NCBI GenBank assembly: GCA_902803015.1 | Contig: CADCOL010000089.1 | Span: forward strand, 1 to 15,676 | Length of the DNA: 15,676 nt | DNA from: an uncultured Lachnospiraceae bacterium | GTDB lineage: Bacteria > Bacillota > Clostridia > Lachnospirales > Lachnospiraceae | Direction of reading: 5' to 3' | Part shown: positions 1 through 10,919 of the stretch, piece by piece | Layout of the letters: every line of letters starts with the position of its first letter | Numbering within the stretch: position 1 is the first letter of the stretch | Notes under the pieces: generated by a model | What the model saw: the letters and a program-made list of their open reading frames with translations, nothing else | Told to the model about the DNA's origin: nothing | Database searches by the model: none | Position numbers and translations under genes: made by a program

Positions 1-1011
1 GACGAAACGGGTCGGCTGACAGGATCGGATTCGGGGAATGTATTTGTACGCTGGCAGGGAGAGGAAGATTTAACGCCAGTCCTTTTCTCCGCACATATGG
101 ATACCGTGGAACCGGGGATTGGCAAGAAAGCGGTTGCGGATGAAGGAAACGGAGTCATCAAAAGCGACGGAAATACCGTCCTCGGAGCGGATGATGTTGC
201 GGGAATCGTGGAAATCATCGAAGCGGTTCGAATAGTAAAAGAAAGCGGAAGAAAGCACAGAAGTGCGGAGTTCCTGTTTCCGGTTGCGGAAGAGGTTTAT
301 ACAAAAGGCTCAACGGCATTTGATTATTCAAAGCTCCGATCCAAAGAAGCATATTGTCTGGATTTAAGCGGACATGTCGGAGCGGCTGCCGTAAAAGCAC
401 CGACGCTGATATCCTTCCGTGTAACGGTTCACGGAAAAGCATCCCATGCGGGATTCGCACCGGAAAACGGAGTCAATGCCATTGCAGTCGCGGCAAAAGC
501 GATTGCGGAAATCCGACAGGGGCATGTGGATGAAGACAGCACCCTGAATATCGGCACAATAAAAGGAGGCATTGTAACCAATATCGTTCCCGAAAATGTG
601 AAGGTGGAAGGAGAAATCCGAAGTTTCAGACATGAACGGGCATTGGAACTTCTGGAAGAAACAAAGCAGGCATTTGAAAGCGCGGCAGAAGAAAATTCAA
701 ACGCCGGAAAAGCACAAATAGATTTTATATATGAAATCCATTTAACTGCGTATGAAAGGAACAAAGAAGAGCAGGTTGTTAAAAGATTTGAGAATGCGAC
801 AAAAAGAATCGGTTTAACACCGTCGCTTATATCCACAATGGGCGGAGCCGATAATCACCAGTTTAATAAAAACGGAATCAACGGAATTGTATTATCCTGC
901 GGAATGCAGAAGGTACATACAACCGAGGAATACATAGAAATTGCAGATTTGGAAGCCGGAGCCGATTTGGTGGCGGAACTTCTTTCGGCAGATTTAAAAG
1001 AAATAACATAA
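1..1011 (+). CDS. M20 family metallopeptidase, PepT-like (5' end outside window)
   Basis: This is a dizinc aminopeptidase or deacylase of the M20 family, probably cytosolic and acting on small peptides or N-acyl amino acids. The reading frame is open from base 1, so the N-terminus (perhaps 35-40 residues) lies outside; 336 residues are visible. Numbered from base 1, the M20 metal motif SAHMDTV carries H32 and D34. D64 in GADDVAG is the bridging aspartate, E97-E98 in VAEEVY are the general base and a metal ligand, and D121 in LDLSG is another ligand. The final metal histidine is in the C-terminal KVHTTEE. The dimerisation (lid) domain spans roughly residues 135-245. The layout best matches PepT-like proteins such as Bacillus YqjE rather than classical tripeptidase PepT. 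Only 31 bases separate it from the first GST-like gene, so it is probably co-transcribed and may trim peptide or cysteinyl-glycine-type conjugates; that substrate is inference. The family call is firm, the substrate unknown. Confidence 0.88.
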   Translation, partial: DETGRLTGSDSGNVFVRWQGEEDLTPVLFSAHMDTVEPGIGKKAVADEGNGVIKSDGNTVLGADDVAGIVEIIEAVRIVKESGRKHRSAEFLFPVAEEVYTKGSTAFDYSKLRSKEAYCLDLSGHVGAAAVKAPTLISFRVTVHGKASHAGFAPENGVNAIAVAAKAIAEIRQGHVDEDSTLNIGTIKGGIVTNIVPENVKVEGEIRSFRHERALELLEETKQAFESAAEENSNAGKAQIDFIYEIHLTAYERNKEEQVVKRFENATKRIGLTPSLISTMGGADNHQFNKNGINGIVLSCGMQKVHTTEEYIEIADLEAGADLVAELLSADLKEIT

Positions 1012-1042
1012 ACAGAAGAAATAGTAACGGAGGTTGAAAGCA

Positions 1043-2503
1043 GTGTCAAACATCGTACCATTCCAAAGCATAGCTTTATTTGAGAATACATTCCGCCATC
1101 AGATTAATAAAGAAAGCGGGAAAATAGAAGATCGCAAATTTGTTTTTCAAAAGAAATTCGGAGACGGGCCGGATGATCTTCCGACTGAACCGGACCGTTA
1201 CAGATTAATCTGGATGCCGGGATGTCCGCACTCCAATAAAGCGATAATCACACTGAGATTGCTCGGACTCGATAAAGTCATCAGTATAGGGGAATGCGGA
1301 ATCCTGCGGGATCCGAGAGGATGGGTTTTCTCGGAGGATTTGGGCGAGGTCGATCCGGTTTTGAAAATCCATTACCTGGACGATGCATATCTGAAAGGAG
1401 ATCCGGATTTTACGGGACGATCCACAGTACCGGCAATTGCAGATGTTACGACGGGTGCGATTGTGCAAAACGAAGCATGGGAGATTCCCGGATATCTGGT
1501 AACGGACTGGGAGGCTTTTCACAAGGAAAATGCACCGGATTTATATCCGGAAGCTTTACGTGAGGAAATCGACCGGGTAATTGAATTAATCAAACTTGTA
1601 AATGCATATGCATGCGGATTCGCAAGAAATCAGGAAAGCTACGATGAGGGTTATCAAAGCTATTTCAGAATTCTGGACCAGTTCGAAGAAAGGCTTTCGA
1701 AGAAACGGTTTCTTCACGGTGATTACATTACACTCTCCGACATTCATCTGTTTGTGGCGCTGATTCGTTTTCATATCAATTATCATCTGGTATTCGGGGT
1801 GAATAAAAAACGTCTCGAGGATTATCCGAATCTCTGGGGATATACGAGGGATTTGTATCAGACGGAAGGTTTCTACGAATATACAAAGCTTGAAAAAATA
1901 AAAGAGCATTATCAGCTCTCGCCGCATATGAGGGCAAAGCTCGGAAACGTACACGGCCTTTTGGGAGTCGGACCGGATAATTCCAAACTGCTGGAAGAAA
2001 CGGGAAGAGAGAAAATGTCCGGTCATCCGAAGGAAAAATTCATTTTAAAAAATCTTACACATTATCGTCATTCGGATGAAAAAGAGGAAATCGAATATCT
2101 GAAGGAAGAGCTTCTGAAACCGATTGAGAATGCGGGAAAAGCGAAATTTCAAACGGATCTGGAACGCTGGGCACATATCGAGGAAGATACGTTTAAGGCG
2201 ATTGACAGACGTCTGGGTGAAAAGAAATATTTAACCGGAGATGTGGCAAACGAAGCGGATAAACTACTGTATCAAACGCTTCTTCGACATGATGATATTT
2301 ACTATTATCTGCATAAACTGAATTTTGCCAAAACATACGACTATCCGAATATTGCACGATACGAAAAGGATTTGAAAACCGTAAAAGAGGTGGCGGAGTC
2401 GATAAATATTGAGAAAGAAAAAAAGAAAGCCTTCCGGGAGCTTTCTGAGGAAAGAAACCCGTACGGAATTGTATTTGCGGGACCGGAAAGGGATGAGGAC
2501 TAA
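1043..2503 (+). CDS. Xi-class GST / ECM4-like protein with a duplicated C-terminal domain
   Basis: This 486-residue protein belongs to the glutathionyl-hydroquinone reductase family (ECM4/YqjG), whose members usually have about 310-330 residues. GTG at 1043 is preferred because GGAGG at 1029-1033 sits 9 bases upstream; the TTG at 1034 abuts that site. The N-terminal thioredoxin-like domain has the catalytic cysteine C61 in GCPHS, where the family has CPWA. It keeps W94, R126 and V129-P130 but has E144-A145 in place of the usual Glu-Ser pair. The first all-helical GST_C domain spans about 168-290 (HGD at 225-227, DYPNLW at 260-265) and ends in a GVGP tail at 308-311. Residues about 345-455 form a second, diverged GST_C copy (YLTGD at 396-400, DYPN at 433-436). 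It is followed by NPYGIV and GP at 472-481, the same tail as in its paralogues. The extra domain may be a dimer or regulatory module. The next gene starts 3 bases after the stop. Confidence 0.85.
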   Translation: MSNIVPFQSIALFENTFRHQINKESGKIEDRKFVFQKKFGDGPDDLPTEPDRYRLIWMPGCPHSNKAIITLRLLGLDKVISIGECGILRDPRGWVFSEDLGEVDPVLKIHYLDDAYLKGDPDFTGRSTVPAIADVTTGAIVQNEAWEIPGYLVTDWEAFHKENAPDLYPEALREEIDRVIELIKLVNAYACGFARNQESYDEGYQSYFRILDQFEERLSKKRFLHGDYITLSDIHLFVALIRFHINYHLVFGVNKKRLEDYPNLWGYTRDLYQTEGFYEYTKLEKIKEHYQLSPHMRAKLGNVHGLLGVGPDNSKLLEETGREKMSGHPKEKFILKNLTHYRHSDEKEEIEYLKEELLKPIENAGKAKFQTDLERWAHIEEDTFKAIDRRLGEKKYLTGDVANEADKLLYQTLLRHDDIYYYLHKLNFAKTYDYPNIARYEKDLKTVKEVAESINIEKEKKKAFRELSEERNPYGIVFAGPERDED

Positions 2504-2506
2504 AAA

Positions 2507-3499
2507 ATGAGCGAGAACAGAATTCAATTCGGAAAAGTATCCACATCGGAAAATGTAAACGAGATTAGTTCGACGGGTGCTTTTGTCAGACAGAAAAACA
2601 GATTTGACACACCGTTTGGAAACAAAGAAGGAGAGCTTCCGGTAGAAGCAAACCGTTACAGACTGATTTGGACACCGCTTTGTCCGTGGGCAACAAGACA
2701 GGTAATTGCATTTAAGCTTCTTGGCCTTGAAGATGTCATCAGCGTCGGAAAAGTGGCCCCGGTCAGAACCGAAAACGGCTGGGAATTCTCCCTTGATGAA
2801 GGCGGCGTGGATCCCGTGCTCGGCATTCGCTTTCTGCCGGAAATTTATGCAAAGACCGATCCCGAATATACCGGAAGAGCAACTGTGCCGACCATAGTGG
2901 ATGTGAAAACCGGAAAGGTGGTAAACAATGACTACCATCATTTGACGAATTACTGGGAAACGGTTTGGAAACCGTTCCACAAAGAAGGAGCGCCGGATTT
3001 GTATCCCGAAGAACTGCGTAGTGAAATCGATGCACTGAATGAAATCATTTTTAATGAAATCAATAATGGAGTGTATAAAGCAGGATTCGCACAGTCCCAG
3101 GAGAGTTACGAGGAAAACTATCACCTTGTATTTCATCGTCTGGATCTTTTGGAAGAGCATCTTTCGCATAACCGGTTTCTGTTCGGAGACCGCCTGACCG
3201 ATTCGGATATCCGTTTGTACGTAACACTGGCGAGATTCGATACGGCATATTATTTTGCGTTCCGCTTAAATAAAAAGCGAATTCGCGATTATGACAATTT
3301 ATGGAATTATGCAAAAGAACTGTACAGTATTCCCGCATTTAAGGAGGCTACGGATTTTGACTCCATAAAACGCGGATACCTGCTTGGTTCCCACGCGGAG
3401 AATCCTTATCAGATTCTTCCGCTCGGACCGGACAATTCCGTTTGGGACGAACCGAACAACAGGAGCGAAAAATTCGGACCGCTCAAATACAAGTATTAA
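2507..3499 (+). CDS. Xi-class GST / glutathionyl-hydroquinone reductase-like protein, paralogue 2
   Basis: This 330-residue protein has the normal length and architecture of ECM4/YqjG enzymes, which reductively remove a thiol from thiol-hydroquinone conjugates through a catalytic cysteine. The signature FVRQKNRF occurs at about 26-33. The active site is C59-P60-W61-A62, identical to the canonical CPWA. W92, R124 and the cis-proline segment T126-V127-P128 are kept. The position of the usual Glu-Ser pair, after VVNN, reads D142-Y143. The helical domain begins near residue 165 and shows NNGVYKAGFA at 186-195, LFGD at 225-228 and DYDNLW at 261-266. It ends with the family tail NPYQILPLGP at 299-308. 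ATG follows the previous stop by 3 bases, with GGATGAGGA inside the upstream gene as ribosome binding site, so translation is probably coupled. Family membership is firm; whether glutathione is the real thiol is doubtful. Confidence 0.88.
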   Translation: MSENRIQFGKVSTSENVNEISSTGAFVRQKNRFDTPFGNKEGELPVEANRYRLIWTPLCPWATRQVIAFKLLGLEDVISVGKVAPVRTENGWEFSLDEGGVDPVLGIRFLPEIYAKTDPEYTGRATVPTIVDVKTGKVVNNDYHHLTNYWETVWKPFHKEGAPDLYPEELRSEIDALNEIIFNEINNGVYKAGFAQSQESYEENYHLVFHRLDLLEEHLSHNRFLFGDRLTDSDIRLYVTLARFDTAYYFAFRLNKKRIRDYDNLWNYAKELYSIPAFKEATDFDSIKRGYLLGSHAENPYQILPLGPDNSVWDEPNNRSEKFGPLKYKY

Positions 3500-3546
3500 A
3501 AGACTACAAATGTAGTTCAAATAGAAGTAATGACAAGGGGAATAAA

Positions 3547-4500
3547 ATGCCGGAGTTAAAAAACATAACCGCCGAAATTGAAAAAGACGGAAGCTTTAAA
3601 AGACAAAGAAACAGATTTACAACACCGTTCGGAAAAGAAGAAGGACAGTTGCCCGTTGAGGCGGGAAGATACAGAATTCTGTGGGCACCGGTCTGTCCGT
3701 GGGCACACCGTTCCATTATCGTAAGATCGTTGCTCGGCCTGCAGGACGTAATCAGTGTCGGGACACTCGACCCGGTACGTCCCGAAAACCCGAATGACTG
3801 GGCTTTCACGTTGGACGAAGGGAATGTCGACCCGGTGCTCGGATATCATTTCCTAAGCGAGGCTTATTTAAAAGCAGACCCGGATTATAAGGGAAGATTT
3901 ACGGTCCCGTCCGTTGTTGATCTGCAAACGGGAGCGGTCGTGAACAACGACTATTTTAACCTTACAAGGTATTGGGAAACGGAGTGGAAAGAATTTCATA
4001 AAGAGGGTGCACCGGATTTGTATCCCGAAGACCTGCGAAGTGAAATCGATGTATTGAATGATATTCTTTTTCATGAAATCAACAACGGCGTTTATAAGAC
4101 CGGTTTTGCGAGAAGCCAGGAGGCATATGAAGAAAACTGCAGACTGGTATTCAATCGCCTGGATTGGCTGGAGGAACGCCTGTCACACAGCAGATATCTG
4201 TTCGGAGACAGAATCACGGAATCGGATGTACGACTCTATGTAACACTCGCAAGGTTTGATGTGGCATATTACAACGGCTTTCGTGTGAACTTAAAAATGT
4301 TAAAAGATTATCCGAATCTCTGGGGTTATGCAAGAGATTTGTATCAGACTCCCGGATTTGGAGATACAACTGATTTTGAAGCAATTAAGAAGCATTATCA
4401 TCTGTGTGCGATTTCCACAAATCCGCTGAAACTTTTGCCGCTCGGGCCGGAAGAAGAGTTGTGGAATACCAAGCACGGAAGAGACAGGGAATATCATTAA
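3547..4500 (+). CDS. Xi-class GST / glutathionyl-hydroquinone reductase-like protein, paralogue 3
   Basis: This 317-residue protein is the most canonical of the four paralogues. The start at 3547 is chosen because AAGGGG lies 6 bases upstream and the protein then aligns with its neighbours. The frame stays open upstream to 3442, but that would overlap the end of the preceding gene. Catalytic C50 lies in CPWAHR. W85, R117 and T119-V120-P121 are kept, but the pair after VVNN is D135-Y136 rather than Glu-Ser. The C-terminal domain has NNGVYKTGFA at 179-188, LDWLEERLS at 205-213, YLFGD at 217-221, RFDVAYY at 236-242 and DYPNLWGYARDLYQ at 254-267, all typical of YqjG. It ends in NPLKLLPLGP at 292-301. 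It is co-directional with its paralogues at a 47-base gap. Expected chemistry is thiol-dependent reduction of S-conjugated quinols or alpha-substituted carbonyls; the physiological thiol is unknown. Confidence 0.88.
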   Translation: MPELKNITAEIEKDGSFKRQRNRFTTPFGKEEGQLPVEAGRYRILWAPVCPWAHRSIIVRSLLGLQDVISVGTLDPVRPENPNDWAFTLDEGNVDPVLGYHFLSEAYLKADPDYKGRFTVPSVVDLQTGAVVNNDYFNLTRYWETEWKEFHKEGAPDLYPEDLRSEIDVLNDILFHEINNGVYKTGFARSQEAYEENCRLVFNRLDWLEERLSHSRYLFGDRITESDVRLYVTLARFDVAYYNGFRVNLKMLKDYPNLWGYARDLYQTPGFGDTTDFEAIKKHYHLCAISTNPLKLLPLGPEEELWNTKHGRDREYH

Positions 4501-4535
4501 GCAATGCGGTATAAAAATAACAGGAGGAAGAAGGA

Positions 4536-5558
4536 ATGAGTTGCTGCGGAGGAAATCAACCGACTTATTCGGTGGAGATAAAAGAAGAAATAGCAAAGGA
4601 CGGGCGCTTTGTCCGTCAGAAAAATGTGTTTACAACACCGTTCGGTAACGGGGAAGGCGAAATTAAGGTAGAAAAAGGACGTTTCAAATTGTACTGGGCG
4701 AAAGGATGCCACTGGTCCAACAGAGCTTCGATTGTACGAGAACTGCTCGGACTGGAAGATGTGCTGGATGTACAGATTGTCGGAAGAGAAAACATAAACG
4801 GGACCTATGCGTGGACCGTGTACGATGAAGAAGGAAATCCGGATAAGCAGAGCGGATATAAATATCTTTTCGAGTATTATGAAGCGGGAAAACCGGGCTT
4901 TGAAGGACGTGCCACGGTTCCGGTCGTAGTGGATCAGATTGAGAAAAAAGCAGTACAGAATGATTATCACAAATTGACCAATTACTTCGAAACCGCATTT
5001 AAGGAGTTTCAAAAGAAGGATGCGCCGGATCTTTATCCCGAGGATTTAAGAGATGAGATTGATGCATTGAACGAATGGCTGTTTCCGAATATCAATAATG
5101 CGACCTATCGCATGATGTTTTCGAGGTCGTTGGAGGCGTATACGGAAGCGTATGAAGACTTTGTGAAAGCACTGGAGTATCTGGATGCCAGACTGGAGAA
5201 TAACCGTTTCCTGTTCGGAGACTATGTAACGGACAGCGATGTCAGACTGTATGTTACGCTGGTACGTTGGGAAGTGGCATATTACAGATTCCTCGGTACT
5301 TTTGAAAAAGGACTTCGGGGATATAAGAATCTTTGGGAATATACCCGTGATTTATATACGATTCCGGCATTCAAACATAATTCCTATCTGTCGGATATTG
5401 CACACGACTACGGTGCAATCGATGAGAGCGGAACTAATTTTCCGTCATTTAATTACAGATACTGGAATGCGGTGGATTACGAAAAGATTTTTTCCGAGCC
5501 GCAGAACAGAAGGGATTTATCACTGGATCCGGATCACAAGCTGAAAAAAGCAGAATAG
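4536..5558 (+). CDS. Divergent Xi-class GST-like protein, paralogue 4
   Basis: This 340-residue ECM4-family paralogue is the most diverged of the four. AGGAGG ends 8 bases before the ATG. The active-site motif is C58-H59-W60-S61 instead of CPWA, so proline is lost after the catalytic cysteine. W93, R125 and V128-P129 remain. The Glu-Ser position again reads D143-Y144, here as QNDY. The very N-terminus carries a Cys-Cys pair followed by Gly-Gly (residues 3-6), absent from the others; it could bind metal or form a disulfide, which is speculation. The helical domain keeps LFGD at 226-229, SDVRLYVTL at 234-242 and NLWEY at 265-269. RFD is changed to RWE, and the usual NPxxxxPxGP tail is replaced by an unrelated 50-residue end. 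Substrate specificity is therefore likely to differ from paralogues 2 and 3. The next gene follows after 30 bases. Confidence 0.84.
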   Translation: MSCCGGNQPTYSVEIKEEIAKDGRFVRQKNVFTTPFGNGEGEIKVEKGRFKLYWAKGCHWSNRASIVRELLGLEDVLDVQIVGRENINGTYAWTVYDEEGNPDKQSGYKYLFEYYEAGKPGFEGRATVPVVVDQIEKKAVQNDYHKLTNYFETAFKEFQKKDAPDLYPEDLRDEIDALNEWLFPNINNATYRMMFSRSLEAYTEAYEDFVKALEYLDARLENNRFLFGDYVTDSDVRLYVTLVRWEVAYYRFLGTFEKGLRGYKNLWEYTRDLYTIPAFKHNSYLSDIAHDYGAIDESGTNFPSFNYRYWNAVDYEKIFSEPQNRRDLSLDPDHKLKKAE

Positions 5559-5588
5559 GAAAGCAGACAGTTAAAGGCAGGACAGGAA

Positions 5589-6707
5589 ATGAGTTACGAT
5601 ATCGACACCCGATGTATTCACGGGTTGGAACATAAGAATAAAGATGCAAACAATGCCATCAGTTATCCGATTTATCAGACAGCATCCTTCAGTCATCTGA
5701 CTCCGGGACATAACCCGTCCGGATTTGATTATTCGCGTGAATCCAACCCGACAAGAAACTATCTGGAAGAAACCGTAAGCTCTTTGGAGGGCGCGTATGA
5801 TACGGTTGCATTTGCATCCGGAATGGCGGCCATATCCGCTGCGTTTGAATATTTTAAAACCGGGGATCATATTCTTTGCGGGGAAGATTTATACGGAGGT
5901 GTTGTGCGCTTAATTGCGCAGGTCTGTAATAAGAACGGATACGAAATCGAACCGGTTGACACGACGAATCCTGCGGAAGTTGCATCCCGGATAAAGGAAA
6001 ATACGAGGGCGATTTATTTGGAAACCCCTTCGAATCCGATGATGAAGGTTTCCGATATCAAAGCGATTGCGCAAATCGCACATGAGAACCGGGCACTTCT
6101 GATTGTGGATAATACATTTATGACGCCGTATTTACAGAATCCGATTAAAGACGGTGCAGATATTGTGATTCATTCCGGAACCAAGTACTTAAGCGGACAC
6201 AATGATACAGTTTGCGGATTCTTATGCAGCTCGAACAGGGAGTTGGCGGAAAGATTCCGCCTGCTTTCCAAAACAACCGGAGCAACACTGGGACCGTTTG
6301 AAAGCTGGCTGTGTCTGAGAGGAATTAAGACTCTGGCGCTTCGCATGGAACGGCATATAAGCAATGCTGCGGCAGTCCGTGAATGGCTGTTAAAAAGAAC
6401 GGAGGTGCGGGAAGTATACTATGCGGGCAGCGGAATGATTTCCTTTACCGTGGATTCAAAGGAACGCGCGGAATCAATTCTTAAGAATGTGAATCTGATT
6501 ATTTATGCGGAAAGTCTGGGAGGGACGGAAAGTCTGATTACCTATCCCGTTGTTCAGACACATCCGGATGTGCCGGAAGAAACCCGTGAAAGACTCGGTA
6601 TTACGGACAAACTCTTACGTTTATCGGTCGGCATAGAGTCTCCTGCAGACATTATTGCGGATTTGGAGAGTGCATTTGAGAACAGCCGGAACGCTGTGAT
6701 AGAATAA
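5589..6707 (+). CDS. Cystathionine gamma-synthase/lyase family PLP enzyme
   Basis: This 372-residue enzyme belongs to the Cys/Met metabolism PLP family (fold type I), cytosolic and normally tetrameric. It acts by beta- or gamma-elimination or replacement on cysteine, homocysteine or cystathionine. The Schiff-base lysine is K199 in SGTKYLSGHND. The PLP-phosphate contacts Y48 and R50 are in FDYSRESNPT, LYGG starts at 101, and D174 in VDNTF contacts the pyridine nitrogen. The C-terminal ESLGGTESL and RLSVGIE motifs are present. Odd feature: after VYYAG (277-279) the chain goes straight to GMISF, skipping the loop of roughly 15-20 residues that relatives have there (PGLxxHPxHExxKRQ...). The frame is intact on both sides, so this is an in-frame deletion and not a break. 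The sequence does not allow a choice between gamma-synthase, gamma-lyase and other activities. The context beside a second C-S lyase favours sulfur-conjugate catabolism. ATG follows AGGCAGGACAGGA. Confidence 0.9.
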   Translation: MSYDIDTRCIHGLEHKNKDANNAISYPIYQTASFSHLTPGHNPSGFDYSRESNPTRNYLEETVSSLEGAYDTVAFASGMAAISAAFEYFKTGDHILCGEDLYGGVVRLIAQVCNKNGYEIEPVDTTNPAEVASRIKENTRAIYLETPSNPMMKVSDIKAIAQIAHENRALLIVDNTFMTPYLQNPIKDGADIVIHSGTKYLSGHNDTVCGFLCSSNRELAERFRLLSKTTGATLGPFESWLCLRGIKTLALRMERHISNAAAVREWLLKRTEVREVYYAGSGMISFTVDSKERAESILKNVNLIIYAESLGGTESLITYPVVQTHPDVPEETRERLGITDKLLRLSVGIESPADIIADLESAFENSRNAVIE

Positions 6708-6738
6708 AGGGGAAAATGCAGAAACAGAGGTAATACGC

Positions 6739-7923
6739 ATGCCCGAAAGAAACCTGGATTTTGATCAAATCGTTGAACGAAGAAATACCAAATGCCTGAA
6801 ATATGATTTTGCCGAAAAACGCGGATATCCGAAAGATGTGCTTCCGCTTTGGGTGGCGGATATGGATTTCAGAACATCCTCTTATGTCGAGGACGCATTG
6901 TGTGAACTTGCAAAGCACAATATCTACGGATATACCAATACGCAGCCGGAAGACGGATTCTTTGATGCGGTTTCCGGATGGATGAAAAGACATCATGGTT
7001 TTGATGTGCTTCAGGAATGGCATGTAAAGACCCCTGGCGTGTGTTTCGCGATTGCCAACGCAATTCGCGCGGTAACAAAGCCGTCCGATGCGGTAATCAT
7101 TCAGGAACCGGTATATTATCCTTTCCGGAACATTATTCGTCAGAACAACAGAAAGCTTGTTGTGAATGAACTGGTCATTGATGTCAATGGACAGTATTTC
7201 ATGGATTTCGATGATTTCGAGAAAAAGATTACGGATCACAATGTAAAACTGTTCATCCTCTGTAATCCGCATAATCCGGTCGGAAGAGTATGGACAAAAG
7301 AAGAGCTTCTTGCGATAGGAGAGATTTGCAAACGTCACGGTGTAATTGTGTTCAGCGATGAAATCCATTTTGATTTTATCTGGGAAGGAACACATCAGAT
7401 TTTTCAGGAGGCGGATTCGTCCTTCCGTGAGTTTACCATTACCGGAACAGCGCCCAGCAAAACATTCAATCTCGCGGGTTTGCAACAGTCAAACATATTT
7501 ATACCGAATGAGGAAATCCGTAAAAAGTTTGAATGGGAGTATTACGTAACCGGGCTGGATGAGCCGAATGTTGCCGGAATTGCAGCCGCACAGGCGGCAT
7601 ACGAAAACGGTGACGAATGGTATGATGCAGCGAAGAATTATATTCGTAAAAACATAGAATTTGCAGATTCGTTCATTGCAAACGAACTCCCGGGTGTTCG
7701 TCTGATTCGTCCGCAGGGAACGTATTTAATCTGGCTCGATTTCAGAGAACTTGGTTTGTCGTCCGATGAACTCGAAGAATTAATTGTTAAGAAGGCAGGA
7801 CTCTGGCTGGACCGCGGAAGAATTTTCGGACGTGCCGGAGAAGGATTTGAAAGAATTAATGCAGCCTGTCCCAGGAGCGTTCTAAATGAGGCATTAAGTC
7901 GCATTAAGAACAATCTGCAATAA
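6739..7923 (+). CDS. MalY/PatB-type PLP-dependent C-S beta-lyase
   Basis: This 394-residue fold-type-I aminotransferase-like enzyme belongs to the MalY/PatB group. It cleaves cystathionine, cysteine and S-substituted cysteines to pyruvate, ammonia and a thiol. The N-terminus shows LPLWVADMDF at 35-44, the hallmark of the group. PLP ligands visible are Y126-Y127, N176 in CNPHNPVGRVW, D207 in SDEIHFDF, and the Schiff-base lysine K241 in PSKTFNLAGLQ. The substrate-carboxylate arginine is in the C-terminal RINAACPR. The length is normal and the frame complete. It follows the preceding PLP enzyme by 31 bases and is the last clear member of the run. In this context it is a good candidate for cysteine S-conjugate beta-lyase, releasing thiols from conjugates made available by the upstream peptidase and transferases. 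That pathway is inference; the family assignment is strong. Confidence 0.92.
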   Translation: MPERNLDFDQIVERRNTKCLKYDFAEKRGYPKDVLPLWVADMDFRTSSYVEDALCELAKHNIYGYTNTQPEDGFFDAVSGWMKRHHGFDVLQEWHVKTPGVCFAIANAIRAVTKPSDAVIIQEPVYYPFRNIIRQNNRKLVVNELVIDVNGQYFMDFDDFEKKITDHNVKLFILCNPHNPVGRVWTKEELLAIGEICKRHGVIVFSDEIHFDFIWEGTHQIFQEADSSFREFTITGTAPSKTFNLAGLQQSNIFIPNEEIRKKFEWEYYVTGLDEPNVAGIAAAQAAYENGDEWYDAAKNYIRKNIEFADSFIANELPGVRLIRPQGTYLIWLDFRELGLSSDELEELIVKKAGLWLDRGRIFGRAGEGFERINAACPRSVLNEALSRIKNNLQ

Positions 7924-7959: not shown

Positions 7960-8029
7960 GATGCCGTGGCCGCAGGAATAGCATAGGTTTCATAGACTGA
8001 AGTTGGTGGTTCGAGTCCACCCGGCATTG
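7960..8029 (+). tRNA. Atypical or degenerate tRNA-like element, CAU anticodon
   Basis: A 70-base cloverleaf can be drawn. The acceptor stem 7960-7966 / 8022-8028 has seven pairs with one G-U, and T8-G9 follow. The D-stem 7969-7972 / 7979-7982 has one C-A mismatch and one G-U, with a short CAGGAA loop containing GG. The anticodon stem 7984-7988 / 7996-8000 has one A-G mismatch, and its loop TTCATAG has U33, anticodon CAU and A37. The variable region is AGTT. The T-arm GGTGG-TTCGAGT-CCACC (8005-8021) is perfect and consensus. The discriminator is G8029 and no CCA is encoded. The T-arm and acceptor convince; the D-arm and anticodon stem are poor. It may therefore be a tRNA pseudogene, a specialised tRNA, or the remnant of an integration site. 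No independent promoter was recognised. Confidence 0.5.
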
Positions 8030-8143: not shown

Positions 8144-8854
8144 ATGAAAATACTGATTACAAACGATGACGGAATCGATTCGCCGTTACTAAAGAAACTT
8201 GCCGTTACGGCAAAGCAGTTCGGAGAAGTCTATGTGGTTGCTCCGGATACGCAAAGAAGCGCGGTTTCCCACGGATTTACCTATACCAGACCGATTACGG
8301 TAAAAGAGTATCCGTTCGGAGTGGAAGATGTGAAAGCATATTCCTGCGACGGACTGCCTGCCGATTGTGTACGTGTGGGAATTGGAAATTTCGTACCGGG
8401 AAAACCGGATCTGGTTCTCGCGGGGATTAACCACGGATACAATATCGGCGCGGACATTCAGTATTCCGGAACGGTTGCGGCCGCAATGGAGGCCGCGTTT
8501 GTCGGAGTACATGCGATTGCGGTTTCGCAGGGAATTCACAGCGACGGGCGAATCGCGGATACGTACTTGTCGGAGCTTTTAAAGGAATGTATTGAAAAAC
8601 CGCTTGAGAGAAACCAGGCATGGAATATTAATTTTCCGGATTGTTCCTTTGAAGAATGTAAAGGGATTCAAAGGGATTGTACGGTATCGAAGGATTTATT
8701 CTACGATGACGGATACGAAGAAGAAACGAATGCAGACGGCGCATCCTCGTACAGCATTGTGGCAAGACGAATCTGGAAAGCAACGCCCGGAACGGATTTG
8801 GCGGCGATTATCGCGAATTATGTTTCGGTTGGAATTGTAAACAATATCGGATAA
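8144..8854 (+). CDS. surE: 5'/3'-nucleotidase SurE
   Basis: SurE is a divalent-metal-dependent phosphatase that dephosphorylates nucleoside 5'- and 3'-monophosphates and is tied to nucleotide balance and survival. The protein has 236 residues, slightly shorter than the usual 245-260. It begins with the canonical MKILITNDDG; D8 and D9 are metal ligands. S39 in RSAVSHG and N96 in AGINHGYN complete the metal site, and YSGTVAAAMEA at 107-117 is the SurE signature. ATG at 8144 is chosen because the family starts exactly there and AAGGAA precedes it; an in-frame ATG at 8102 would add 14 unrelated residues. The gene lies 220 bases beyond the C-S lyase, with the tRNA-like element between, and no terminator separates them. 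It could be read from the upstream operon. The C-terminus NYVSVGIVNNIG corresponds to the family's last strand but lacks further extension. Confidence 0.93.
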   Translation: MKILITNDDGIDSPLLKKLAVTAKQFGEVYVVAPDTQRSAVSHGFTYTRPITVKEYPFGVEDVKAYSCDGLPADCVRVGIGNFVPGKPDLVLAGINHGYNIGADIQYSGTVAAAMEAAFVGVHAIAVSQGIHSDGRIADTYLSELLKECIEKPLERNQAWNINFPDCSFEECKGIQRDCTVSKDLFYDDGYEEETNADGASSYSIVARRIWKATPGTDLAAIIANYVSVGIVNNIG

Positions 8855-9540: not shown

Positions 9541-10206
9541 ATGGATACAAAGCAAAGAATACTGGACGAAGCACTGACACTGTTTTCCGAAAAGGGATAT
9601 GCCAATGTATATGTGGCGGATATTGCCGAACGCGTCGGCATTAAGGCACCGTCGCTTTACAAGCACTATAAGAACAAGCAGGCGATTTTTGATGCCATTC
9701 TCGAAGAGATGAACCGTCGTTTTCTGGAAACGGCAGGCGCACTTCAGATAAACGGAGCGGATGCGGTGGCGGATGCGGACATTTATAAAACCATATCGGA
9801 GGATCAGCTGCTTGGTCTCGGAAGAAATCTGTTTTTATACTTCCTGCACGACGATTACACAAGGCGTTTTCGTAAAATGCTTACCATTGAACAGTTTCAT
9901 GATAAAAGACTCGCGGATGTGTATATGAAGCAGTATGCGGACGATCCGCTTTCCTATCAGGGGATGCTGTTTGGTCTGATGGTTTCGGCAGGTGTTTTAA
10001 AAACGGACAATGTGCAGATTATGACATTGCATTTTTACGCACCGATTTACATGCTATTAACCATTTGTGACCGGGATCCGGAACGTGAGCCGGAAGCGCT
10101 GAATCTGCTGGATGCGCATATCCGTCAGTTTAATTCTCTGTATGCAAGAGATGAAGATCAGGTAAATGAAAACAAAAAGAAGACAAACCGGAGGAATAAA
10201 TCATGA
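9541..10206 (+). CDS. TetR/AcrR family transcriptional regulator
   Basis: This 221-residue repressor has the TetR layout: an N-terminal helix-turn-helix (about residues 4-50, with the recognition segment VADIAERVGIKAPSLYKHYKNK) and a variable helical ligand domain. ATG at 9541 is chosen because AAGGA sits 5 bases upstream and the HTH begins at the usual place; the GTG further upstream lacks a site. It is preceded by a promoter bearing two palindromes, and its stop overlaps the next start as ATGA. It is therefore probably an autorepressor that also controls the flavoprotein gene. The inducer is unknown; a quinone, electrophile or similar redox-active compound is plausible given the partner. 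The C-terminal tail is lysine-rich (KNKKKTNRRNKS-like) and encodes the Shine-Dalgarno of the next gene. Confidence 0.92.
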   Translation: MDTKQRILDEALTLFSEKGYANVYVADIAERVGIKAPSLYKHYKNKQAIFDAILEEMNRRFLETAGALQINGADAVADADIYKTISEDQLLGLGRNLFLYFLHDDYTRRFRKMLTIEQFHDKRLADVYMKQYADDPLSYQGMLFGLMVSAGVLKTDNVQIMTLHFYAPIYMLLTICDRDPEREPEALNLLDAHIRQFNSLYARDEDQVNENKKKTNRRNKS

Positions 10207-10919
10207 AAATTACAGTAATAAACGGTACCGAAAAACATGGTGTGACATACAGAATGAAGGAAATCTTTCTGGAGGAATTCAGAAATGATGCGGAGATTAC
10301 GGAGTACTATCTTCCAAAGGATTGTCCGGGCTTTTGCTGCGGATGTACGCAGTGTTTCCGGGAACAACAGCATTTGTGCAAGGATGCAGAGTATGTTCAA
10401 AGGATTGAAAAATCCCTTTTGGAAGCGGACCTTTTAGTGTTTACTTCACCGGCATATGTATTCCATACCACAGGCGCCATGAAAGCAATGCTCGATCATT
10501 TCGGGTATCGCTGGATGCCGCACAGACCTGCCAAAGAGATGTTCGGGAAAAGAGCCGTTATCATTACGCAGTGTCTCGGTTCAGGTGGCAAATCCACCGC
10601 AAAGGATATTAAGGACAGCCTTTCCTGGTGGGGCGTTACGGAGATTAAAGTAATCAGCTTTAAGTTGATGTCAGAGATTGACTGGAATAAAATCGAGGAA
10701 AAAAAGAAAGCGGATTTTCAAAAGAAACTTTCCAAAATCGCAAAAAAGATGCATGCCATTGACTATACAAAACCTGCACATACAGGCCTTGGTACCAGGT
10801 TTAAATTCTATGCGGTTCGTATGCTTCAGACTAGTCTCGGCAAGCAGAATCCCGAATACACCGATTACAAATACTGGAAAGCGAACGGCTGGATTGATAA
10901 GGTAAGACCGTGGAAATAA
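10203..10919 (+). CDS. Flavodoxin-fold NAD(P)H-dependent oxidoreductase with Isf-like Cys motif
   Basis: This 238-residue protein belongs to the NADPH-dependent FMN reductase / iron-sulfur flavoprotein superfamily. The N-terminus KITVINGTEKHGVT forms strand 1 and the FMN-phosphate loop. LVFTSPAYVFHTTGAMKAMLDHF (about 85-107) is the second flavin-binding region typical of the family. Between them lie C41, C45, C46, C48, C51 and C59. The spacing C45-x2-C48-x2-C51-x7-C59 fits the compact [4Fe-4S] motif of Isf proteins, so a cluster is possible, although many relatives with similar cysteines lack one. A basic C-terminal extension (about 185-238) is of unknown role. The ATGA overlap with the TetR gene and the strong CGGAGG 8 bases upstream indicate coupled expression. 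Likely role is reduction of quinones, nitro compounds or disulfides using NAD(P)H or ferredoxin; the substrate is not evident. Confidence 0.85.
   Translation: MKITVINGTEKHGVTYRMKEIFLEEFRNDAEITEYYLPKDCPGFCCGCTQCFREQQHLCKDAEYVQRIEKSLLEADLLVFTSPAYVFHTTGAMKAMLDHFGYRWMPHRPAKEMFGKRAVIITQCLGSGGKSTAKDIKDSLSWWGVTEIKVISFKLMSEIDWNKIEEKKKADFQKKLSKIAKKMHAIDYTKPAHTGLGTRFKFYAVRMLQTSLGKQNPEYTDYKYWKANGWIDKVRPWK

Follow-up and report, generated by a model that had tools for sequence, protein, structure and literature searches.

The 15,676-nt stretch of DNA analysed here, which we call the window, is an entire contig (CADCOL010000089.1 of assembly GCA_902803015.1; our G000:C89) of an uncultured, rumen-type anaerobic Lachnospiraceae bacterium. 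It carries seven co-directional genes, encoding an M20-family metallohydrolase, four xi-class glutathione S-transferase (GST)-fold proteins (X1–X4), a pyridoxal phosphate (PLP)-dependent enzyme of Cys/Met metabolism and a PatB-type C–S lyase. We propose, with moderate confidence, that this operon mediates oxygen-independent salvage of sulfur from S-conjugates of cysteine or of short cysteine peptides, probably activated aromatic ones. Gene content, its conservation in relatives, the active-site residues and fold of the GSTs, and a natural fusion of a GNAT acetyltransferase to a GST_C domain are all observed directly.

If this reading holds, a cleavage class built on xi-GSTs would allow rumen and gut anaerobes to regain cysteine from conjugated compounds, and would account for GST genes in organisms with no evident glutathione partner. 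The annotation of such genes as 'glutathionyl-hydroquinone reductase', a label in use in a survey of gut flavonoids (in the part of PMC12940152 drawn on here), would become doubtful. The published breakdown of S-(2-succino)cysteine has an open slot, namely loci with neither the monooxygenase nor the lyase. No description of xi-GSTs in an S-conjugate salvage operon was found in the titles and abstract openings of open-licence literature.

A block of seven genes and its conservation

An earlier note on this DNA had described seven co-directional genes with gaps of 3–47 bases as a candidate thiol-conjugate processing operon. The underlying observation is confirmed: all open reading frames (ORFs) lie on the + strand, have Pfam support and are separated by 31, 3, 47, 35, 30 and 31 bases (Table 1). 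The gene list stands with two corrections: the contig, which the window spans in full, begins inside the M20 gene and so cuts off its 5′ end, and X1 (486–489 aa) carries an additional GST_C copy. For X3, we chose the ATG at 3547 as the start, while the ORF list has a TTG at 3442. A xi-GST search of the own genome (76.75% complete) yielded five matches, every one on the window contig, namely X1–X4 and the second GST_C copy within X1.

Table 1. Features of the operon and of the RNA that follows it, in window coordinates.
Feature	Position	Strand	Support
M20-family metallohydrolase, peptidase-T-like, 5′ end truncated	1..1011	+	PF07687 72 bits (M20_dimer), PF01546 55 bits (Peptidase_M20)
X1 xi-GST, motif CPHSNK, with second GST_C-type domain at ~residues 346-480	1043..2503	+	GST_C_2 59.5 bits
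Duplicated GST_C-type module of X1	2090..2488	+	residues 351-482 aligned with 170-312
X2 xi-GST, motif CPWATR	2507..3499	+	GST_C_2 44.9 bits
X3 xi-GST, motif CPWAHR	3547..4500	+	GST_C_2 57.9 bits
X4 divergent xi-GST, motif CHWSNR, Pro after catalytic Cys lost	4536..5558	+	GST_C_2 38 bits
Cys/Met-metabolism PLP enzyme, CGS/CBL/CGL type	5589..6707	+	PF01053 (Cys_Met_Meta_PP) 422.5 bits
PatB/MalY-family C–S beta-lyase	6739..7923	+	TIGR04350 427.5 bits; Aminotran_1_2 123.1 bits
Unusual 70-nt tRNA-like RNA, anticodon CAT, 36 b past patB	7960..8029	+	ARAGORN; Rfam tRNA 33.7 bits; model R1 90.7 bits

The order M20-X1-X2-X3-X4 is repeated in the related genome G024 (locus L044), X2-X3-X4-CGS-PatB (where CGS is the Cys/Met PLP gene) in G021 (L045), and all seven genes are present, reshuffled, in G004 (L036). 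This bears out the idea of a block for thiol-conjugate or organic-sulfur processing, for which the earlier note had proposed looking for a conserved gene order and for transporters upstream. As the window begins inside the M20 gene, these relatives were used for the upstream genes. L044 reads GDSL, tRNA-like RNA, GCS2-family ligase, GATase_4 (EgtC-like), LysR, GNAT, substrate-binding protein (SBP), permease, ATPase, M20, X1, X2, X3 and a cut X4, and a second G024 contig (L052) carries on with X4, CGS, PatB and a tRNA-like RNA; L036 holds the same gene kinds in a reshuffled order. The transporter is a cystine-type ATP-binding cassette (ABC) system, located upstream of M20 in L044 and after M20 in L036. 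Its SBP is nearest to PDB entries 4c0r and 4eq9, which we take to be the glutathione-binding GshT. In the own genome, contig C227 (L150) has GCS2, GATase_4 and LysR at its end, with a GNAT gene just beginning after them, so C227 probably precedes the window.

The gaps between LysR and GNAT (452 b) and between GNAT and SBP (217 b) in L044 leave space for additional promoters. Promoter-like sites number 19 in the window against 15.6 (standard deviation (sd) 3.2) and 13 in L044 against 14.4 (sd 4.6), and terminator-like sites 14 in each, against 9.0 (sd 3.1) and 8.1 (sd 2.6), respectively.

In G002, a scar beside the tRNA-like RNA (L154:4896-5516) retains pieces of GCS2 (1-60), X4 (281-311) and PatB (216-251 and 300-393) in that order, so the block was formerly contiguous there and has since been lost. 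Together with the sparse occurrence of xi-GSTs in the genus (8/31 genomes), this marks the block as an accessory, losable unit. At seemingly the same locus, G025 (L151:8697-20000) has what looks like an alternative module without a xi-GST, consisting of GCS2-GATase_4-LysR followed by a serine-dehydratase-like gene, a short-chain dehydrogenase, an SBP, ABC genes and a YxeP-family M20.

The statement in the earlier note that clostridia generally lack glutathione synthesis needs care, since a gamma-Glu-Cys-ligase-type gene is present in 5 of the 31 genus genomes (PF04107 in four, including the own genome, and PF04262 in one). A GCS2-type ligase lies directly upstream of the operon in two relatives, a PF04262-type ligase is paired with GATase_4 in L061 and in G012, and a GCS2-GATase_4 pair stands beside xi-GSTs in G318. 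The upstream ligase and amidase resemble EgtA and EgtC of ergothioneine synthesis weakly, with scores of 59.9 bits (cut-off 370.8) and 68.3 bits (cut-off 218.65) that are far under the cut-offs, in a comparison confined to these two Egt genes. Across the genus, the ligase occurs in 4/8 genomes with and 1/23 without xi-GSTs (P 0.0098, kinship ignored); this link was not upheld in genomes passing 90% completeness and 5% contamination (3/5 vs 1/8, P 0.22).

Regarding the enzymes that flank the GSTs, the window M20 scores 266.1 bits against TIGR01883 (cut-off 274.25), its N-terminus being truncated, and its best PDB matches are 3gb0 (209 bits) and 3rza (175 bits), with just 28.1 bits for YxeP (1ysj). 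The Cys/Met PLP enzyme has PRK08247 as its top NCBIfam match (410, under the cut-off of 585) and matches 4l0o, a cystathionine gamma-synthase (CGS), at 340 bits and 7d7o, a cystathionine gamma-lyase (CGL)/homocysteine desulfhydrase, at 332 bits. These matches point to the type shared by CGS, cystathionine beta-lyase (CBL) and CGL, at a level where a single reaction is not assignable. PatB is a member of NCBIfam C_S_lyase_PatB, exceeding the TIGR04350 cut-off of 340; its best PDB matches are 4dgt (372 bits), the PatB structure 6qp3 (352 bits) and the cysteine-S-conjugate beta-lyase 9k71 (307 bits), and it has an SKTF motif at residue 240.

Four xi-GST subfamilies and their active sites

X1–X4 all belong to the xi class by fold and sequence family. 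To place them, we built a quick tree (LG+G4, SH-aLRT support only, 35 forks left open) from the 159 collected sequences plus 5 PDB segments, 164 rows in all. X1 belongs to a 24-row clade with CPH..K motifs (support 99), X2 to a 16-row set (97) and X3 to an 11-row set (95) with an Acholeplasmatales protein among its members. X4 has a clade of its own with 33 rows, mainly CHWSNR or CNWSNR (100, stem 0.65), that includes a Treponema protein. Recent tandem duplication was ruled out on this tree, because each paralogue clusters separately with xi-GSTs from other organisms; X1–X4 are thus four old, divergent subfamilies without a recent expansion. The earlier note had found four such genes in a row striking: at least two xi-GSTs occur in 41 and at least four in 10 of the 87 gene runs surveyed below, so runs with multiple copies are not rare in this set, and the four in the window are ancient paralogues.

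In ScECM4, Glu173 and Ser174 bind the gamma-glutamyl group of glutathione, Arg155 its glycine carboxylate, and three Tyr residues the quinol, according to the part of PMC5063366 drawn on here. The catalytic Cys is present in 157 of the 159 collected sequences and in X1–X4, and the Tyr triad is kept in 155, 154 and 126 of them (with 20 gaps at the last column); the equivalents of Y224, Y301 and Y346 are all Tyr in X1, X2, X3 and X4. Arg155 is kept as well (158/159). The Glu-Ser pair is found in none of the 159, where the two columns instead read DY (132), EA (11), DP (7), DH (5), DF (2), DN (1) and NY (1); in the window, X2, X3 and X4 have DY and X1 has EA. Among the five PDB rows, ES occurs in the three that are glutathione or gamma-Glu-Cys enzymes, and the two actinobacterial ones have DF or DY with Gly in place of Arg155. 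From these residues, we read the sulfur and quinol chemistry as retained and the thiol partner as altered, with X1–X4 apparently no longer shaped for glutathione recognition. Glutathione or imported glutathione conjugates, the latter raised in the earlier note, are therefore not supported as the thiol recognised by the GSTs, and the interpretation in that note as a whole is partly supported.

This sets the window proteins apart from the known xi-class GSTs and glutathionyl-hydroquinone reductases (YqjG, ECM4, PcpF, NmGHR, MstX) in several ways: the Glu-Ser site is replaced, X1 has an added GST_C domain, and the genes are set in sulfur operons. Furthermore, the CPWA motif, termed 'strictly conserved' in the xi class in section 14 of PMC6345682, is present in X2 and X3 and missing from X1 (CPHS) and X4 (CHWS). 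The best PDB relatives by sequence, 4pts and 3m1g, are of the actinobacterial type, the group of the mycothiol S-transferase Xi (MstX) of Corynebacterium, which shares D-Y or D-F instead of E-S; MstX proteins have Gly at the Arg155 column, whereas the window proteins retain Arg.

The extra domain of X1 forms helices over residues 346-465 in a structure model; a single-sequence fold of X1 was unusable (pLDDT 35.2). This ~490-aa form is confined to one clade (support 100), in which 18 of the 164 rows are at least 430 aa long; one locus is counted twice among these, as identical copies. The same domain recurs in other contexts. In L063 and its near-twin L064, from two metagenome-assembled genomes, Pfam finds both a GNAT and a xi-type GST_C domain in one 298-aa protein, and our own hidden Markov models delimit them at 1-143 (E 1.1e-51) and 158-276 (E ~5e-36). 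GST_C-only ORFs lie clear of contig ends in L058 (190 aa) and L164 (208 aa). Given the fusion and the stand-alone ORFs, the second domain of X1 is one version of a mobile GST_C module, which perhaps serves in docking or in substrate binding.

Partners of the xi-GSTs, a proposed route and its rivals

For the survey of neighbourhoods, we took 77 loci from a single scan of genome contigs, ranked by similarity of the GST, and 17 stretches (one without a GST) from relatives. The culturable carriers Kineothrix alysoides and Roseburia inulinivorans are represented by L066 and L127. Runs, defined as co-directional genes with gaps of at most 250 b, numbered 87 once duplicates were dropped, and representatives of the neighbour clusters were named via Pfam and NCBIfam. 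The most common partner is GNAT (54 runs), which the earlier note overlooked because it lies outside the window, followed by the cystine-type ABC transporter (35), CysK (20), PepT-like M20 (19), PatB (15) and CGS (14). Rarer are LysR (8), a YxeP-family M20 amidohydrolase (TIGR01891; 7) and GATase_4 (2). In Bacillaceae, the unit is often minimal, consisting of a xi-GST and a GNAT. None of 20 random 20-kb windows from three genomes (G005, G012, G035) contained homologues of the partner clusters, a comparison given without a P value because the loci are related and the clusters were defined from them. Xi-GSTs are rare across the phylum: 7 of 398 sampled genomes had a match, including the own genome, which leaves 3/397 others once three weak partial matches (E 6e-5 to 5e-4) are set aside.

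A protect–cleave–deprotect scheme for cysteine S-conjugates is known from the scm (yxe), ytn and yha clusters of B. subtilis, in which an ABC amino-acid importer, a GNAT and an M20 hydrolase flank a C–S cleaving enzyme, and in which the enzyme of the breakdown step, set between acetylation and deacetylation, is exchangeable (PMC9706529, sections 4 and 10; PMC12757645, section 9). Section 4 of the former counts 11 of 102 yxe loci with neither of the two known breakdown enzymes, monooxygenase and lyase; its section 10 gives the monooxygenase route of S-(2-succino)cysteine breakdown as requiring oxygen, and CmoJ likewise consumes molecular oxygen in the account drawn on from PMC10863075. In our operon, the GNAT and the importer are found outside the window (upstream in L044 and in L036, with the GNAT also at the end of C227), xi-GSTs replace the monooxygenases or 2SL, and PatB, CGS and CysK are added. 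With a GST in the cleavage slot among the same kinds of partners, the route would need no oxygen.

In the route that we propose, a conjugate would be imported by the LysR-regulated cystine-type ABC transporter, and its amino group would be blocked by the GNAT acetyltransferase, or at some loci perhaps by the gamma-glutamyl ligase. The catalytic Cys of a xi-GST-fold enzyme would then attack the conjugated sulfur, freeing the carbon skeleton reductively, and the cysteinyl part would pass to a second small thiol, probably other than glutathione. Subsequently, the M20 hydrolase (or the EgtC-like amidase) would strip the blocking group or trim the peptide, and PatB, the CGS-type enzyme and CysK would route the sulfur to sulfide, cysteine or homocysteine. 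The four GSTs would differ in their specificity for activated carbon partners, with aromatic or quinol-type partners being the most likely; quinone–cysteine adducts of plant phenols in rumen forage are a plausible source of substrates. Here, we infer the substrates, the chemistry, the order of steps, the thiol donor and the direction of flow. The PepT-like M20 and the SBP matches also permit imported peptide or glutathione conjugates that would be trimmed before the GST step.

Several points weigh against this route. The window contig itself has no GNAT or ABC genes. The M20 is PepT-like rather than a YxeP-type N-acetylcysteine deacetylase, which is why we describe the operon as working like an scm-type cluster and do not file it as a member; YxeP-type enzymes occur in only 7/87 runs. 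Nine of the 87 runs have no listed partner at all, and 33 lack a GNAT. The 87 loci come from a similarity ranking and are mutually related (many from Bacillaceae), and the clusters were derived from these very neighbourhoods. In a separate phylum draw of four loci, three have partners and a GNAT occurs in one of the four: L164 has CysK, GNAT, GCS2 and GATase_4, L166 and L167 each come with the cystine-type ABC set, and L165 has none, with the xi proteins of L165 and L166 being 98-99% identical to members already collected. Finally, S-alkyl and succinyl conjugates have no activated carbon of the kind on which known xi chemistry depends.

Alternatively, the operon could serve the uptake and reduction of cystine or mixed disulfides, with the ABC transporter importing them, the xi proteins acting as glutaredoxin-like thiol transferases and the lyases degrading surplus cysteine. 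The cystine type of the transporter and the actinobacterial type of the nearest structures are consistent with this, as are the thiol transferase and mycoredoxin activities ascribed to Corynebacterium MstX (in the part of PMC6815410 drawn on here). We nevertheless consider it unlikely, since it leaves unexplained the GNAT partners, the GNAT-GST_C fusion, the M20, the four specificity-type paralogues and the retained quinol-binding Tyr triad.

In line with the view of the earlier note, the operon could instead serve a mercapturate-like pathway for conjugates of glutathione or gamma-glutamylcysteine taken up from outside, in which the EgtC-like amidase would remove gamma-Glu, the PepT-like M20 would remove Gly and PatB would cleave the cysteine conjugate. 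This reading draws on the ligase and amidase upstream in L036, L044 and on C227, on the G318 pair, on the GshT-like SBP, on the type of the M20 and on the retained Arg155, holder of the Gly carboxylate. Since the four GSTs have lost the pair that binds gamma-Glu, most xi-GST runs lack the ligase and amidase, and the GNATs would be left without a role, we judge it quite unlikely. A further view holds the GSTs to be stress enzymes that detoxify quinones and other electrophiles by reducing thiol–hydroquinone adducts, the sulfur genes just supplying cysteine. It accords with the retained Tyr triad and catalytic Cys and with the hydroquinone-conjugate reductases characterised in this class (the parts of PMC5063366 and PMC6345682 drawn on here). 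Its improbability comes from the transporter, GNAT, CysK and lyase partners and the LysR regulator, which indicate nutrition over stress, and from the runs with annotated genes, among which no redox-stress regulator was seen.

Taking the salvage route together with the other findings, it is possible, if doubtful as a whole, that xi-GSTs constitute a third, oxygen-free cleavage class in protect–cleave–deprotect salvage, having exchanged glutathione for a thiol derived from cysteine. Their ancient specificity classes, at least four in number, would have been shuffled among acetyltransferase operons, once being fused via a detached GST_C docking module, and the genus operons would be tagged by a new tRNA-like RNA family with Cys/Met anticodons, which may sense sulfur amino acids.

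The tRNA-like RNA and other neighbours

The RNA beside patB is one of a family that 14 of the 31 genus genomes carry in a total of 15 copies, with anticodons CAT (8) and GCA (7) and a cloverleaf backed by 7 pairs changed on both sides. The rest of the family adds 149 genomes, of which 4 carry a copy with a score of at least 79 bits; the match after these drops to 53 bits (L168-L182 and L184-L187 cover all copies, including those outside). Ten of the 15 genus copies adjoin PatB, an O-acetylhomoserine (OAH)-sulfhydrylase-like gene, GCS2 or the G002 scar, and of the four outside copies, three follow CysK and one precedes metK. The CAT copies are mostly 3′ of patB. GCA copies with an annotated next gene lie in leaders, ~27-50 nt ahead of the start codon; the genes that follow are OAH-sulfhydrylase-like (L179, and by BLAST label L178, L180 and L181), GCS2 (L182), radical-SAM NifB-like (L174, L184) and metK (L187). 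G004 additionally has ordinary tRNA-Cys and tRNA-Met genes. These RNAs might mimic tRNAs in cis or serve as additional tRNAs, and titles and abstract openings of open-licence literature yielded no description of tRNA-like RNAs beside sulfur genes. At Rfam gathering scores, a riboswitch and T-box search of 11 loci gave tRNAs and one c-di-GMP riboswitch only, and the window gave one tRNA, in a scan that sub-threshold T-boxes could escape.

Among the surveyed loci, an MmgE/PrpD-family gene (cluster c42, also present at two other loci) adjoins a xi-GST in Veillonella rogosae (L129:7370-8776), followed by the cystine-type ABC set. In L056:10084-17130 and L051:2035-9432, a nitrogenase-like set and a sulfonate-type ABC transporter lie beside xi-GST genes; in L056, the NifH-like protein scores 449.8 bits, above its cut-off, and the NifB-like (277.5) and NifD/E-like (165.4) proteins score below theirs. 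This set is perhaps an anaerobic C–S reductase akin to methylthio-alkane reductase. In the window, the tRNA-like RNA is followed by a SurE-like 5′-nucleotidase (8144-8854) and by a TetR regulator with an FMN-reductase-like protein (9541-10919), both of which also lie 3′ of the operon in L052 (G024) and L090 (G004).

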